Source: Microcoleus sp. CAWBG506
GTDB taxonomy: Bacteria > Cyanobacteriota > Cyanobacteriia > Cyanobacteriales > Microcoleaceae
Assembly: GCA_020883125.1 (NCBI GenBank)
Contig: JAHREW010000010.1
Coordinates: 100,992-154,669 of the forward strand
Reading direction: 5' to 3'
Length of the DNA stretch: 53,678 bases
Shown here piece after piece: positions 44,255 to 49,692 of the stretch. A model generated the notes under the pieces. The model did not search any database and was not told the DNA's origin. It was given only the letters and a program-made list of their open reading frames with translations. The stretch's first letter is position 1, and every line of letters starts with the position of its first letter. The position numbers and the translations under genes are program-made.

Positions 44255-45769
44255 TTGACTTTTAATCCCAATAACTGCCGCAACGAAAGCGAAGTAGAAA
44301 CCAAACTAATTGTCAGCTATCTACTGCCAAAACTGGGCTATACCCCCGACACTTGGCATCAAGAAATAGCCTTTGGGAATATCCGTCTAGACTTCCTATC
44401 CTTCGCCACCAAAGTTATCCCAATAGTCATCGATACAGACTCGCCGATGAGTGTAGTAATTGAGGCGAAACATCCCAAGGAAAAATTAGACCGCCACATC
44501 AGAAGACTGAAACGTTACTTAACAAGCTTAAACATTCGCTACGGACTGATCACCAATGCGAAAGAAATTAGAATTTATGAAAGAATAGCCTCCGAGATTC
44601 AGCTAGTATTTAATTGCTCTGGCCAAGAACTTGAAACCAGAATCGATGAAATTATTGCTTTAATTGGCAGAGATAGTTTAAAAATAATCAAAAGTCCACA
44701 AAATCTAGAACTAAAATATAGTCAACTAAATTTAGTTACTCCTGATTTGACTAACGAAATAGCGATCGCTCTAAATCATCCAGCCAACGTCGAACCGCCA
44801 CCAAATCCAATCTCCCAACCGGAAAATGTGCCAGAAATAGTGCCATTCGCTCCCGAAATTGTACCAGAAATAAAATTAGATCTAGTTGAACCCACAACCA
44901 GTCAAAATACTATGAAAATAATTGCTGTTTACCACAATAAAGGCGGAGTCGGTAAAACTACAACCGTAGTCAATTTAGCCGCCGCCCTCAGCAAGCAATG
45001 TAAAAGAGTCTTGGTGATAGACTTAGACAGTCAAGCTAATACAACCTTTGCCACAGGTTTAGTCAAATTTGATGACGAAGAAGATGATGATTTGAAACAA
45101 AAAAATATTCTGCACATCTTACAATCAGAGGATTTTTACTCAATATCAGAAGTAGCTAGAAAGTCTAATTTTTGCACTCCAGCAATAGATGTGATTCCTT
45201 CTCATATTGATTTAATGCAATATGAAACAGAACTAAACTCACTGGATTACAGTAGAATGATTCTGATACAGAAACTAGCAGAAGTACAAGATAAATACGA
45301 TATTGTATTGATTGATACGCCACCATCTTTGAATTTTTATGCCAGAGTTGCCTTGATTGCAGCCGATTATTTAATTATTCCTTCTGACTTAAAGCCTTTT
45401 GCGAATCAAGGATTAATTAATGTCAAAGATTTTATCAAAAAAGTTAATGGATTTAAGAAACAAATCGGCAAAAATCCTCTACAGGTTTTAGGTGTACTTC
45501 CTTGTAAAATCTCAACTAACGCTAAATTTATACAGCACAGTTTGCCTAGGCGGAGGGATGCAATTCCCAAACGTTACGGTATGGAAATTATGGAAAGCGT
45601 AATTTATGAAAGAGATGATTTGGCTAAGTGTGCAGAACAAACTCAAATATTCGGAGATATGGAAATTGCCGACCCCATTTCGGTGTTAGACTTTAAGCCA
45701 GATTCAGTCGCTTCCCAAGAGTTTGAAGTATTAGCAATGGAAGTTTTGGAAAAGATAGGTGAGAAATAA
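44255..45769 (+). CDS. PD-(D/E)XK (HsdR-N-like) nuclease fused to a ParA/MinD-type ATPase
   Basis: 504 residues. Residues 1-140 fit the N-terminal nuclease domain of type I restriction HsdR. Glu15 lies in NESEVETKL, Asp46 in IRLDFLSF, and Glu70/Lys72 in SVVIEAKHP, followed by RYLTSLNIRYGLITNAKEIRIYE-like strands. A Pro/Glu-rich linker (about 175-218) leads to a complete ParA-type ATPase from Met220. It has the deviant Walker A KGGVGKTT with signature Lys229 and Lys234, ALSKQCKRVLVIDLDSQAN, and Walker B DIVLIDTPPS. TTG 44255 is the first possible start, since an in-frame stop lies 9 bp upstream. ATG 44912 could give a free ATPase. It overlaps the ParB-like gene by one base (TAATG). Confidence 0.88.
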   Translation: MTFNPNNCRNESEVETKLIVSYLLPKLGYTPDTWHQEIAFGNIRLDFLSFATKVIPIVIDTDSPMSVVIEAKHPKEKLDRHIRRLKRYLTSLNIRYGLITNAKEIRIYERIASEIQLVFNCSGQELETRIDEIIALIGRDSLKIIKSPQNLELKYSQLNLVTPDLTNEIAIALNHPANVEPPPNPISQPENVPEIVPFAPEIVPEIKLDLVEPTTSQNTMKIIAVYHNKGGVGKTTTVVNLAAALSKQCKRVLVIDLDSQANTTFATGLVKFDDEEDDDLKQKNILHILQSEDFYSISEVARKSNFCTPAIDVIPSHIDLMQYETELNSLDYSRMILIQKLAEVQDKYDIVLIDTPPSLNFYARVALIAADYLIIPSDLKPFANQGLINVKDFIKKVNGFKKQIGKNPLQVLGVLPCKISTNAKFIQHSLPRRRDAIPKRYGMEIMESVIYERDDLAKCAEQTQIFGDMEIADPISVLDFKPDSVASQEFEVLAMEVLEKIGEK

Positions 45770-46665
45770 TGCAAAAATTATCCCCGTCGTTGGTAGCAGT
45801 AAAAAAAATTACATCCACAGTTCCCCGTGACAATTTTGCCGATCGCGATTTGGAGAAAGTGGCACAACTAATTTTAGAATTAGGAGGATTGATCAACCCA
45901 ATAATTCTCCGTCGCAACGGTATGGACGCCTACGAGATAGTAGACGGAGACTTTGAATACTACGCTGCGGCGAAAGCCAGGGAAATCAACCCTATGAAAG
46001 GTGAGACAATCGGAGCATTTATTCTGGAACCGGAAAATGAAGAACTTCTGCTAGAGCAAGTTCAAGCGCTAAGAAGATGTGCAATAACTGAGGATGCTGA
46101 GAGTCCAGAAACCGGGTTTTTATACGAAAATACTTCATCACAGCCCGCAGATTCAATCAAAAACCCGGTTTCTTTAGTCGAAGTCCCTAAATCCTGTGAA
46201 AATGAAACTCTTCAATCATCATCCAGTTTAGAACAACGGCTAACAAATATTGAAGCCCAGTTTGCAAGTCAAATTAATGAGTTGAAAGCTGAGTATGCTC
46301 GTGAAAAACAGGTTTTAGTCCAGAGTATACAAGAAGTTGAAAACAGAATTTTACAACAAGTATCTCTGTTAGTTGAAGGTGGGTTAGCAAACAGAATTAA
46401 TGGTTTGAAACCACAGCCGTCACCAGAAGTTAAAAAAGTAACTTCGCAATCAATGTCACTGTTGGAAGCACTCAATAGTCTAGATAAATCTGCACTGTTG
46501 GCGAATTTTAAAGATGCTGGATTGAAGCCTTCAGTAGTCCAAACAATCATCAAAGAGCGAGGTGTGCGAGAGTTTACATCATTCGCAAATGTGGTGGAAC
46601 GTGTTGATAAGTTAGGTGACAAAACAATGATTAAAATAATTGATAAGTGGCAAAAATATTCATAA
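45769..46665 (+). CDS. ParB/Srx-like protein with an in-frame repeat insertion
   Basis: 298 residues. Residues 1-105 follow the ParB N-terminal fold: ITSTVPRDNFADRD, then VAQLILELGGLINPIILRR and YEIVDGDFEYYAAAKA. The GERR-xR arginine patch of true ParB CTPases reads DGDFEYYAA, so CTP switching may be lost. Residues 113-137 are encoded by a dispersed 67-bp repeat. A coiled coil (about 160-215) and a C-terminal helical domain (SLLEALNSLDKSALLANFKD, then ERGVREFTSFANVVER) complete it. ParB proteins load onto DNA and stimulate ParA. Partnership with the overlapping nuclease-ParA is strongly suggested by the one-base stop/start overlap. The stop codon merges with another repeat at 46665. Confidence 0.78.
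   Translation: MQKLSPSLVAVKKITSTVPRDNFADRDLEKVAQLILELGGLINPIILRRNGMDAYEIVDGDFEYYAAAKAREINPMKGETIGAFILEPENEELLLEQVQALRRCAITEDAESPETGFLYENTSSQPADSIKNPVSLVEVPKSCENETLQSSSSLEQRLTNIEAQFASQINELKAEYAREKQVLVQSIQEVENRILQQVSLLVEGGLANRINGLKPQPSPEVKKVTSQSMSLLEALNSLDKSALLANFKDAGLKPSVVQTIIKERGVREFTSFANVVERVDKLGDKTMIKIIDKWQKYS
46107..46173 (+). repeat. 67-bp AGAAACCGGGTTTTT element inside the ParB-like gene, copy 3
   Basis: Exact 15-bp inverted ends (46107-46121 and 46159-46173) and the TACGAAAATACT...CCCGCAGATT centre match the intergenic copy at 33087-33151. The reading frame stays open through it (SPETGFLYENTSSQPAD, then NPVSLVE). Confidence 0.88.
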
Positions 46666-46769
46666 TATCAATTCCGGTTGCACAAGCGAGATGATAGTCG
46701 GACACGGCAGTGCCGTGTCCCTACCCCAAAATAACATTGTAGGGACACGGCACTGCCGTCTCCTAATTT
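46665..46769. repeat. Composite ATATCAATTCCGG ... ACGGCACTGCCGT repeat
   Basis: Same composite as 23931-24074, without the 42-bp internal duplication. It begins at the last base of the ParB-like stop codon. The remaining 46770-46958 shows no gene. Confidence 0.75.
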
Positions 46770-46958
46770 AGAAAAAAAGTAAAGATGAGTTAAGCAATGT
46801 ATAATTGATGTCCCCAGGCAGTTACACTCATCACAGTCGCTTTTTTTAGGAATTGTAGTAACTTTTGTCGATCGCCTGGGATGTCACCCCACAGCAAGCT
46901 GCACAGATGGTACATTGTTGCCGGATGAATTGCTGAAACCATTTCGGGGGATTATATT

Positions 46959-47008
46959 TTCCTTCTTCCTTCTTCCTTCTTCCTTCTTGCTTCTTCCTTC
47001 TTCCTTCG
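46959..47008. repeat. Heptamer array (TTCCTTC)
   Basis: About seven units of TTCCTTC 55 bp before the second ParB-like gene. Confidence 0.85.
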
Positions 47009-47062
47009 GCTATAAATACCTAAAACACCTGATTTTCATGACAAAAGAGGACTTGTAACAAG

Positions 47063-48121
47063 ATGGATCGATCGCAAGATCAAAACCGAATAGTTGAATA
47101 TTTGCGGATTAAGCCAATTAGTCACAGTCAAATTTACACTTCCCAAATTGCCATACCAGAGACTCAGCGGGGCGAAATAATACGCGATCGCCGCGAAGCT
47201 CTCAGAAGAAGTCTAATTGAGCAAGGGAGCAACTTGATCCCTTTAATTGTACGCCCCACAGAAGCTTACAGCAACGAAGAAGAATACGAAGTTATCTGCG
47301 GCGCTGATTGGTGCATGGTTGCTAAAGAACTGGGCCTAGAACAAATGTGGGCTTGGGTTTTTGAAATGACCGATGAGGAAGTAGCTGCTGCTCAAACAGA
47401 AATGGAACTTTTAGCTCCACAGCCAATTCAAAAAACAGCCCAACTTGAGAGTCTACTGCAACAATTTGAGCTATCCTTTCAAAAAAAGGTAGAGAGTCTA
47501 ACAACACAAATAGAACAATCAATTAAAAAAAATGAAGACCTGCTAAAAAAACAAGTAAAAGCTCTAACTGAGCAGAATTTAGAGGGTGACAAAATAGAAC
47601 AGATTAGGATTATAATCGAACAAATTGAACAAACATTTAACAAAAAGGTAGATAAATTGGCTAAAAAATTTGAGCGATCGGGCAGCAATATTTCTCCCAC
47701 ATCTGCTGCTATGGATGAAATTAATCTGGAAGGTGCGTTAACACTCTTGGATGAATTTGAGAAATTGCTGTCAATTAAATTAGAATTCACAGTCGAAACA
47801 ATTAATCAGTTTGTGTCGGAGGCAATTACAGACCTAGAATCCGACTTGAAAAATCAAATTGCAAGGCTCCGTCGCCAACTTGGAGCCACCGCCCAAAACT
47901 CTGGAATACCACCAGAGACCAAGCCGAAAACTAAGTCTAAAACACAGCCCAAAAAACCGTTTTTGCCACAATTACCGCCGTTGCAGTCCCCACCAGAAGA
48001 CTATGACAGTCTCTCCCTCAGACGCTTGAAGGCGATCGGCAAAGAGCGGAAATTGCGGGGTTATGCACGGATGAAACGACCAGAAATTCTGGCTGCTCTC
48101 AAACAGATTGACGGTAAATAA
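47063..48121 (+). CDS. ParB-like protein with coiled coil and Rho-N/SAP-like C-terminus
   Basis: 352 residues. The N-terminal 110 resemble a ParB/Srx domain: IPETQRGEIIRDRREALRRS, then LIVRPTEAYSNEEEYEVICG and ADWCMVAKELGLEQMWAWVF. Here too the GERR motif is replaced (CGADWCMVA). Residues 115-290 are long amphipathic helices (QLESLLQQFELSFQKKVESL, KIEQIRIIIEQIEQTFNKK). The Pro-rich part (290-310) precedes a C-terminal SLRRLKAIGKERKLRGYARM then KRPEILAALKQ. That is a helix-extended-helix of the Rho N-terminal or SAP type that binds nucleic acid. It lies on the same strand as the nuclease-ParA/ParB-like pair, separated by repeats. It probably works with them, but may have its own promoter. Confidence 0.76.
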   Translation: MDRSQDQNRIVEYLRIKPISHSQIYTSQIAIPETQRGEIIRDRREALRRSLIEQGSNLIPLIVRPTEAYSNEEEYEVICGADWCMVAKELGLEQMWAWVFEMTDEEVAAAQTEMELLAPQPIQKTAQLESLLQQFELSFQKKVESLTTQIEQSIKKNEDLLKKQVKALTEQNLEGDKIEQIRIIIEQIEQTFNKKVDKLAKKFERSGSNISPTSAAMDEINLEGALTLLDEFEKLLSIKLEFTVETINQFVSEAITDLESDLKNQIARLRRQLGATAQNSGIPPETKPKTKSKTQPKKPFLPQLPPLQSPPEDYDSLSLRRLKAIGKERKLRGYARMKRPEILAALKQIDGK

Positions 48122-48233: not shown

Positions 48234-48437
48234 ATGTCCGTCATCCCAGAATTAGGGAATGCCCAAGACATCCCAGAACGTGTTATCTTTCCCAAAGGCG
48301 ATTTATACAGTGATGAACCTCCCTTGGAAACTGAACTGCATCTGCGACAAATAATTTTACTTCTCCAATGCCTAGATTGGCTGTGGCGAGATAGAAACGG
48401 CTTTATCGCACTTTTGATGCAAGTTTCCTGTATTTAA
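48234..48437 (+). pseudogene. Uma2-family nuclease gene, 5' fragment only
   Basis: The first 57 codons match the N-terminus of cyanobacterial Uma2 (DUF820) proteins: IPELGNAQDIPERVIFPKGD, then LYSDEPPLETELHLRQI and WLWRDRN. Full-length relatives are about 200-250 residues with a PD-(D/E)XK core that is entirely absent here. After WRDRN the sequence turns into FIALLMQVSCI and stops, 6 bp before the 3' end of xisI. It is a decayed remnant or the product of a deletion. Confidence 0.85.
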
Positions 48438-48443
48438 GGTAGT

Positions 48444-48779
48444 TTAGGCGATCGCATATCCCGTATGTTGCCGAACGTGATACGGATGAAACCCTAAAAC
48501 TATCATATCTTTAGGCACTCCTAATTCTACAAGTTCTGCGGTAATTCCCGTTTCTATACCATCTTGTTGAATCCAGATTTTCCCATCAATAATTTCTACA
48601 TGGACGATACAATCGTGAATTCTTTTAGGCCCTTGCCAGCCATCGTGCATCAGTAAAAAATTGTTTTGTTCGCGATCGACGATTACGCTGTTTTTAATTT
48701 GCCCGTAACTGTTAGGAATCCTGGCATAACTATCTAAAACATTGTGAATAAATTGGCGATATTCATCTAGTCTATCCAT
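48444..48779 (-). CDS. xisI: XisI family protein
   Basis: 111 residues matching the XisI family: DEYRQFIHNVLDSYA, then LLMHDGWQGPKRIHDCIVHV, EIIDGKIWIQQDGIETGI and the end LGFHPYHVRQHTGYA. In Anabaena XisH and XisI control excision of the fdxN element together with XisF. Many cyanobacteria, including non-heterocystous ones, carry orphan xisHI pairs whose role is not known. It overlaps the end of xisH by 13 bp, so translation is likely coupled. Confidence 0.93.
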   Translation of the reverse strand: MDRLDEYRQFIHNVLDSYARIPNSYGQIKNSVIVDREQNNFLLMHDGWQGPKRIHDCIVHVEIIDGKIWIQQDGIETGITAELVELGVPKDMIVLGFHPYHVRQHTGYAIA

Positions 48780-49183
48780 CTGACAATTATCTCCTTTGAT
48801 GAATCAAAAACAATTAGTTTGAGTCTTTTTTTGCGTAACAAAAGTTGCCCGATTGGCTCAGAGAAAATATCTAGATAAACTTCTTCCCGAACAGCCAGAT
48901 ATATATTCCGTTCTGGTTCCGATTGCTCTAGAATATCTTCATAGACAATATACTGTCCCAGAGCTTCTTCTAAGTCATGCACCGGAGAAGCTGCCAGAAA
49001 ACTTTTCACTTCTACAGCAATTTTGCGACCTTGCTTTTGGGCAGCGAATAGTTTTTCTGCACCCAAATCGACGAATAGGGAACGACCGCCAATTTCTAAG
49101 GTTAACGGATCGTTGGTTATTGTCCACCCGTCCTTTTCCAAGGCTGTTATGACATTATTGTGGTAGATGTCTTTTGCTGGCAT
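48767..49183 (-). CDS. xisH: XisH family protein
   Basis: 138 residues of XisH type: AKDIYHNNVITALEKDGW, LFVDLGAEKLFAAQKQGRKI, then AVEVKSFLAASPVHDLEEALG and QYIVYEDIL. The Asp39...Glu58-x-Lys60 arrangement (VDLG, EVK) is that of a PD-(D/E)XK nuclease fold, so XisH may cut DNA. This is inference from motif, and XisH was named for its effect on fdxN excision. No xisF recombinase lies in the window. The pair is flanked on both sides by truncated genes. Confidence 0.93.
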   Translation of the reverse strand: MPAKDIYHNNVITALEKDGWTITNDPLTLEIGGRSLFVDLGAEKLFAAQKQGRKIAVEVKSFLAASPVHDLEEALGQYIVYEDILEQSEPERNIYLAVREEVYLDIFSEPIGQLLLRKKRLKLIVFDSSKEIIVRWID

Positions 49184-49236: not shown

Positions 49237-49692
49237 TCAGAGATTCATTAATATTGGGACGCGCAAACTGACAATCGGGCCGATCATTCCGCCCATAACT
49301 ATAAATTTGAACACATTTTGAGGGCGATCGAACAGATGATGAGATCCAACAAATTTGTGTAGCAGGAAATTACTAATAATTGCAGATGAAGTCGTCCCTC
49401 CAGCAATCATCGAGGCAGTTAGAATTGAAATGGTAACAGAATTAGCATTTGTGTTGTCCAAAACAGCCCAAATATCGGCAAAAAATGAACCAATCAAAAC
49501 TCCTGGCCAGACACGATATCCTAGTATGAGAAGAGCCGCTAAAGCAAAACCGTCAGGTGGCCACACAGGAGTTACATTATTTGGCGTAGATGCCAAAAAT
49601 CTCCCCAATTCGCCAGTGGTGTAGTACACAACAGCGATAACTGCAACTGCTATCGGGTGCAGCAACCCTTTTGGTAGCGATCGAAAAGTCAT
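49237..49692 (-). pseudogene. MASE1-domain sensor gene, 5' fragment only
   Basis: 151 residues of the N-terminal MASE1 membrane sensor domain: VYYTTGELGRFLASTPNN, VTPVWPPDGFALAALLILGY, RVWPGVLIGSFFADIW and FVMGG-like segments, with four membrane helices. A MASE1 domain has about eight helices and is normally followed by GGDEF, EAL or a kinase. Here homology ends near GPIVS and the frame closes with LRVPILMNL. It looks truncated, and what follows is xisH. If translated, it would give a partial membrane protein without an output domain. Confidence 0.78.

Follow-up and report, generated by a model that had tools for sequence, protein, structure and literature searches.

Why should an ATPase of the type that partitions DNA carry a restriction-type nuclease, and what might such an enzyme do together with a ParB-like protein? 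The question is raised by a locus of Microcoleus sp. CAWBG506 lying within a stretch of 53,678 nucleotides, hereafter the window, that corresponds to positions 100,992 to 154,669 of contig JAHREW010000010.1. An initial annotation had noticed here a frame joining an HsdR-N-like nuclease to a full ParA ATPase, followed by two ParB-like genes, which we call parB1 and parB2. From the sequence alone, we infer that the fusion and its first ParB-like neighbour may form an ATP-controlled two-gene module, a DNA-targeting nuclease for defence or replicon exclusion, a reading to which we assign a probability of roughly 45%. The ATP form of ParA would dimerise on DNA and so pair two nuclease domains, while the ParB-like protein would grip a DNA feature via its tail, recruit the ParA-nuclease and drive its ATP cycle; as a consequence, cutting would be confined to DNA bound by the ParB-like protein. 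The purpose would be to destroy or exclude incoming or competing DNA (phage, plasmid), for chromosomes and plasmids alike. Four divergent versions of the fusion exist, hereafter A, B, C and D, that of the window being version A.

Both halves of the fusion were confirmed. Its first 150 residues match a nuclease fold, namely an HsdR/type IIG-like PD-(D/E)XK domain with Glu15, Asp46 and Glu70-x-Lys72 as proposed, and the ATPase is complete (table 1). Across 73 fusions the active-site residues are kept almost throughout (E15 in 70, D46 in 71, E70 in 73 and K72 in 72), all but one of 19 version C proteins have an intact site, and the D and E-x-K residues are retained, by eye, in the version C and D copies carried on plasmids. 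The ratio of non-synonymous to synonymous substitutions (dN/dS) of the nuclease domain is 0.09-0.24 over six pairs compared within the Microcoleus clade, indicating purifying selection; the same pairs give 0.02-0.16 for the neighbouring desaturase, and their values for linker and ParA are listed in table 1. The nuclease looks functional. As in ParABS systems, the deviant Walker A motif, KGGxGKT[ST], is invariant in 46 aligned sequences of versions A and B, and version D has KGGVAKTT or KGGVSKTT. A quick tree recovered A and B as one group each, with six other ParAs (including the fusion of locus L206) clustering with them; the more careful tree took in no such outside ParAs.

The association with a ParB-like gene is also supported. 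Version A or B was found at 82 loci, tabulated with a simple caller of open reading frames (ORFs), and 62 of these lie outside the Microcoleus clade; clustering identifies a downstream ParB-like gene of one homology group on the same strand in 59 of the 62, and direct matching in 58, the exceptions to the latter being L097, L121, L137 and L144, where the contig runs out. For version C, 18 of 20 loci gave a fusion ORF, 16 of the 18 with a same-strand gene at most 200 bases away, and 14 of these 16 neighbours match the ParB-like partner profiles at E 0.01, the E-values of our partner and nuclease profile searches being calculated for very small sets. Twelve further loci with long ParAs gave 11 fusion ORFs with version C or D nuclease motifs by eye (that of genome G048 is also counted in the version C set); 9 of the 11 match the nuclease profile, and an adjacent partner-profile gene is present in all 11. 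What is conserved with the fusion is one ParB-like partner gene, not the ParB-like pair suggested initially. By its sequence type, parB2 is a partner of version B whose own fusion is absent, and not a standard part of the module: of 20 Microcoleus-clade loci, 17 have it next to the version A pair, and among the other loci compared L106 is the sole one with a parB2-type gene close to such a pair, the gene there coming after a version B fusion broken into two frames. In five comparisons within the Microcoleus clade, parB2 has a dN/dS of 0.19-0.62. We also considered a version B fusion lost from between parB1 and parB2, and rejected it after comparing 12 version B proteins with 24 sequences: no remnant was found, the matches being the known version A fusion and a separate divergent ParA of two loci.

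The partner itself is, on its predicted features, a non-canonical ParB. It contains the N-terminal CTPase fold of the ParB/Noc type, as ParB of ParABS does, but its Box II, the nucleotide-binding motif that is of the GERR type in ParB, reads mostly GxxEYYAA with version A and GADWxxxA with version B, and Pfam scans of nine partners returned no helix-turn-helix (HTH) family corresponding to the central HTH of ParB. Nor did inspection by eye of N-terminal regions in two partner alignments, every second row in one of them, reveal the LG-R/K-GL motif for ParA binding (PMC12704722). The C-terminal tails fall into three classes, defined with profiles seeded from 5, 5 and 6 of the same partner sequences: of the 57 distinct partners of version A from outside the Microcoleus clade, 43 have a helix-hairpin-helix (HhH) tail, 4 a SAP/Rho_N tail and 9 a tail of a third class (1 unassigned), while the 22 version B partners comprise 14 with SAP/Rho_N, 6 of the third class and 2 unassigned, so that two tail classes are common to both partner types. 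The parB1 tail evolves faster than the ParB-fold part (dN/dS 0.32-0.64 vs 0.05-0.18).

An intact ParA followed by a partner of ParB/Noc fold also suggests the main rival explanation, according to which the pair positions or segregates chromosome or plasmid DNA in a ParABS-like manner, with the nuclease acting on DNA that is tangled or damaged. We regard this as less likely, even if several observations are in its favour. Relatives without the nuclease exist, the locus has been retained for long in Microcoleus, and in three genomes that consist of a single contig (G018, G020 and G219) the genes of parB1 or parB2 type are the sole ParB_N hits above 100 amino acids (aa), with a best E of 1.6e-8. 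Conversely, the partner has neither a GERR-type Box II nor an HTH domain, and in six genomes the locus lies anywhere between about 0.24 and 2 Mb from dnaA. An origin-proximal position was considered as a sign of segregation and discarded, these distances being inconsistent; dnaA is not necessarily a marker of the origin. The genome of strain CAWBG506 has a strong ParB hit, on contig C4.

The distribution of the module is broad and uneven. A full version A fusion is present in 27 of the 29 genomes of the genus, that of CAWBG506 included, and is thus not peculiar to one assembly; one of the other two genomes has a fragment and the second, 74% complete, has no match. Of 386 evenly sampled cyanobacterial genomes, 66 were matched by the version A query at E 1e-30 (several being version B), 27 by the version B query at E 1e-40 (several being version A) and 42 by the version C query at E 1e-30. 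The union of these matches amounts to 85 genomes, at least three of which (G159, G171 and G398) have only a ParA and no nuclease, and 301 genomes have no match at these thresholds. Among the 145 Nostocaceae genomes, A or B is matched at E 1e-30 in 83, in several of them by short frames devoid of the nuclease part, and is not matched in 62; such gaps, like the 301 genomes in the wider sample, argue against a role in segregation. Several genomes combine A with C or D, and the single-contig genomes G020 and G018 have C and D, respectively, on chromosome-size contigs. Beyond cyanobacteria, we covered plasmid, phage and IMG/VR records and scanned the contigs of named genomes once for close relatives.

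The locus had initially been assigned to an accessory island, which synteny contradicts for this genus: the upstream genes (thrC-like, a small ORF and the desaturase) do not vary across Microcoleus and four further genera of its family. In Nostocaceae the site is nonetheless a variable slot. We found ten genera holding both A and B, in g172 even within one species, and in eight of them (g3, g39, g60, g61, g62, g162, g167 and g177) the two versions are flanked by the same genes on both sides according to our reading of the locus tables, the version A copy of g60 being split in two frames; g33 shares genes on one side only, and g172 could not be judged. Fusions of versions A and B are 29-35% identical, versus 59-86% for version A fusions within a genus, while the neighbours shared by A and B loci are 82-99% identical in 64 of 76 comparisons, the rest going down to 52%. 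A gene for a 294-aa ParA lies next to the slot in 20 of 35 loci (e.g. L163:14023-14907) and served to locate it in 14 of the 15 genomes that we tried among the 62 Nostocaceae without A or B; another gene set occupies the slot in 11 of these 14, partially in 2, and 1 is empty. This set consists of a 3'-5' exonuclease with a weak Cas4-like match in its C-terminal part, an AAA ATPase and a 283-aa protein of no known function (L162:11275-12741, L152:1168-3231 and L156:1060-1911), the latter two having no match in PADLOC. The exchange between A and B, together with the other gene set, thus indicates a variable slot between conserved genes in Nostocaceae, and such swapping of versions is atypical of a core segregation gene.

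With version A or B as query, no plasmid or phage record reached 80% coverage, one of these searches covering its best 5000 records, and the nuclease part alone retrieved seven plasmid records with no ParA among them. Versions C and D, for which phage records gave nothing at 80% coverage, are present in seven cyanobacterial plasmid records: C on two plasmids of Nostoc sp. UHCC 0870, and D on a third plasmid of the same strain, on one Leptolyngbya boryana plasmid recorded from two strains, hence twice, and on two plasmids from Pseudanabaena. A single scan of IMG/VR left 80 loci, one of which held a fusion (L206, a version C pair). All three Nostoc plasmids also have annotated ParM, ParG or ordinary ParA/ParB genes, which weighs against segregation, whereas no further partition gene is annotated among the 18 coding sequences of the 12.6-kb plasmid ABRG53g, nor in the viewed 38 kb of the 78-kb pLBA, and on these two plasmids the pair could be the partition system itself. 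The presence of C and D on plasmids, with one strain bearing different copies on three of them, and of A plus C or D in several genomes would also suit a selfish, plasmid-derived module for maintenance or incompatibility, whose versions would cut or exclude replicons with other versions and whose chromosomal copies would be domesticated; this is improbable given the lack of A and B from the plasmid records searched and the fixed chromosomal site of version A in Microcoleus. Least probable is a repair, recombination or regulatory factor with a nuclease domain that binds or nicks special DNA structures, for the HhH and Rho_N/SAP tails and a version A ParA fused to part of a superfamily 1 helicase in L106 would agree with it, but the patchy occurrence and the replacement at one site do not.

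A DNA-targeting nuclease module fits the swapping at one site, the faster-changing tails, the plasmid carriage beside ordinary partition genes and the constraint on the active site. Several results weigh against it. The three window proteins have only partial matches in PADLOC-DB 2.0.0, the best covering 45 residues around the P-loop. Among the 352 ORFs lying within 4 kb at the 62 loci, 3 show a methylase-like motif in a screen for short motifs only, and with no linked methylase seen the discrimination of self from non-self lacks an explanation. The version C fusion of L296 (genome G030) has lost the catalytic D and K; the same genome also has a version B fusion, L134, in which both are kept. 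At six loci a version A ParA is present but none of the ORFs matches the nuclease profile, and in L123 (5030-7643) fused and unfused version A ParAs stand side by side, from which it follows that ParA can function without the nuclease. The retention at one site in 27 of 29 Microcoleus genomes resembles that of a core function. Furthermore, the exonuclease/ATPase set also adjoins A or B in several genera and so is no strict alternative to the fusion, and L106 carries A and B in tandem; the replacement pattern may instead have arisen from tandem copies followed by differential loss. In L106 (4974-8174; genome G169) the C-terminal part of the helicase replaces the nuclease of the version A ParA, and the preceding gene encodes the N-terminal part, which matches a DUF559/MTES_1575 nuclease weakly.

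With respect to known systems, the module resembles ParABS in having a ParA ATPase with deviant Walker A motif followed by a ParB-fold gene, but its ParA bears a nuclease domain and its partner has HhH, SAP/Rho_N or other tails in place of the HTH, GERR-type and ParA-binding motifs. McdAB and other ParA-based positioning systems likewise combine ParA with a partner lacking the HTH of ParB, and we know of no nuclease in systems of the McdAB type. The nuclease fold and active site are those of HsdR of type I restriction and of the type IIG enzymes DrdV and BpuSI, from which the fusion differs in having ParA as its ATPase instead of a superfamily 2 helicase motor, and in the lack of a linked methylase by the short-motif screen. 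Proteins with the ParB-CTPase fold are known beyond segregation, some with unusual fused domains (PMC12704722), and this account gives the DUF3850 fusion as the only one consistently co-encoded with a parA neighbour; its main text mentions neither helix-hairpin-helix nor words starting with Rho, and we saw no HsdR-type ParA fusion there. We found no description of a nuclease-ParA fusion in the literature searched (mostly abstracts, with subscription journals and preprints largely outside), including under ParA family and HsdR N-terminal, in line with the initial proposal of an undescribed system.

Table 1. Features of the nuclease-ParA locus in window coordinates; dN/dS from six pairwise comparisons within the Microcoleus clade.
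Feature	Position	Strand	dN/dS
Version A nuclease-ParA fusion, 504 aa, TTG start	44255..45769	+	
HsdR/type IIG-like PD-(D/E)XK domain, residues 1-145; E15, D46, E70-x-K72	44255..44689	+	
Linker, residues 146-218, little conserved	44690..44908	+	0.37-1.21
ParA ATPase domain, residues 219-504, Walker A KGGVGKTT	44909..45766	+	0.07-0.11
parB1, ParB-like partner, 298 aa: ParB_N fold, coiled coil, helix-hairpin-helix-like tail	45769..46665	+	
Dispersed palindromic repeat between parB1 and parB2, outside the module	46700..46770		
parB2, second ParB-like gene, 352 aa, Rho_N/SAP-like tail	47063..48121	+	

The last base of the fusion is the first of parB1 (45769). Most of the 142 matches of the 3867-base query in its own genome fall on the repeat at 46700-46770. 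Promoter-like sites number 10 against a shuffle mean of 10.7, hence no excess, and terminator-like sites 7 against a mean of 4.2 (sd 2.2). Downstream lie a 67-aa ORF (48234-48437), a relative of which is present three times in tandem in L015, and xisI plus xisH (48444-49183), found at the same place in 5 of 20 Microcoleus-clade loci besides the window, some of these loci ending earlier. The MASE1 frame that follows (49237-49692, 151 aa) spans less than half of the 299-position profile and is probably truncated.

We propose, tentatively and at somewhat less than even odds, that these loci represent a hitherto undescribed class of cyanobacterial nuclease systems, widespread and under ATP control, which would serve in immunity or in competition between replicons and need no methylase. 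A partition ATPase would deliver a restriction-type nuclease and a ParB-fold adaptor with interchangeable tails would pick the DNA, with at least four mutually replacing subtypes on chromosomes and plasmids. In the plasmid records examined, the fusion bears no annotation other than 'ParA family protein' or 'AAA family ATPase'. Should the pair serve segregation instead, it would bear on how DNA is sorted in cyanobacteria without a strong chromosomal ParB hit. If the proposed nuclease class is real, about one-fifth of the sampled cyanobacterial genomes would possess such a system, DNA positioning and cutting would be united in one enzyme, and the barriers of cyanobacteria to phage, plasmid transfer and genetic engineering could be explained in part.

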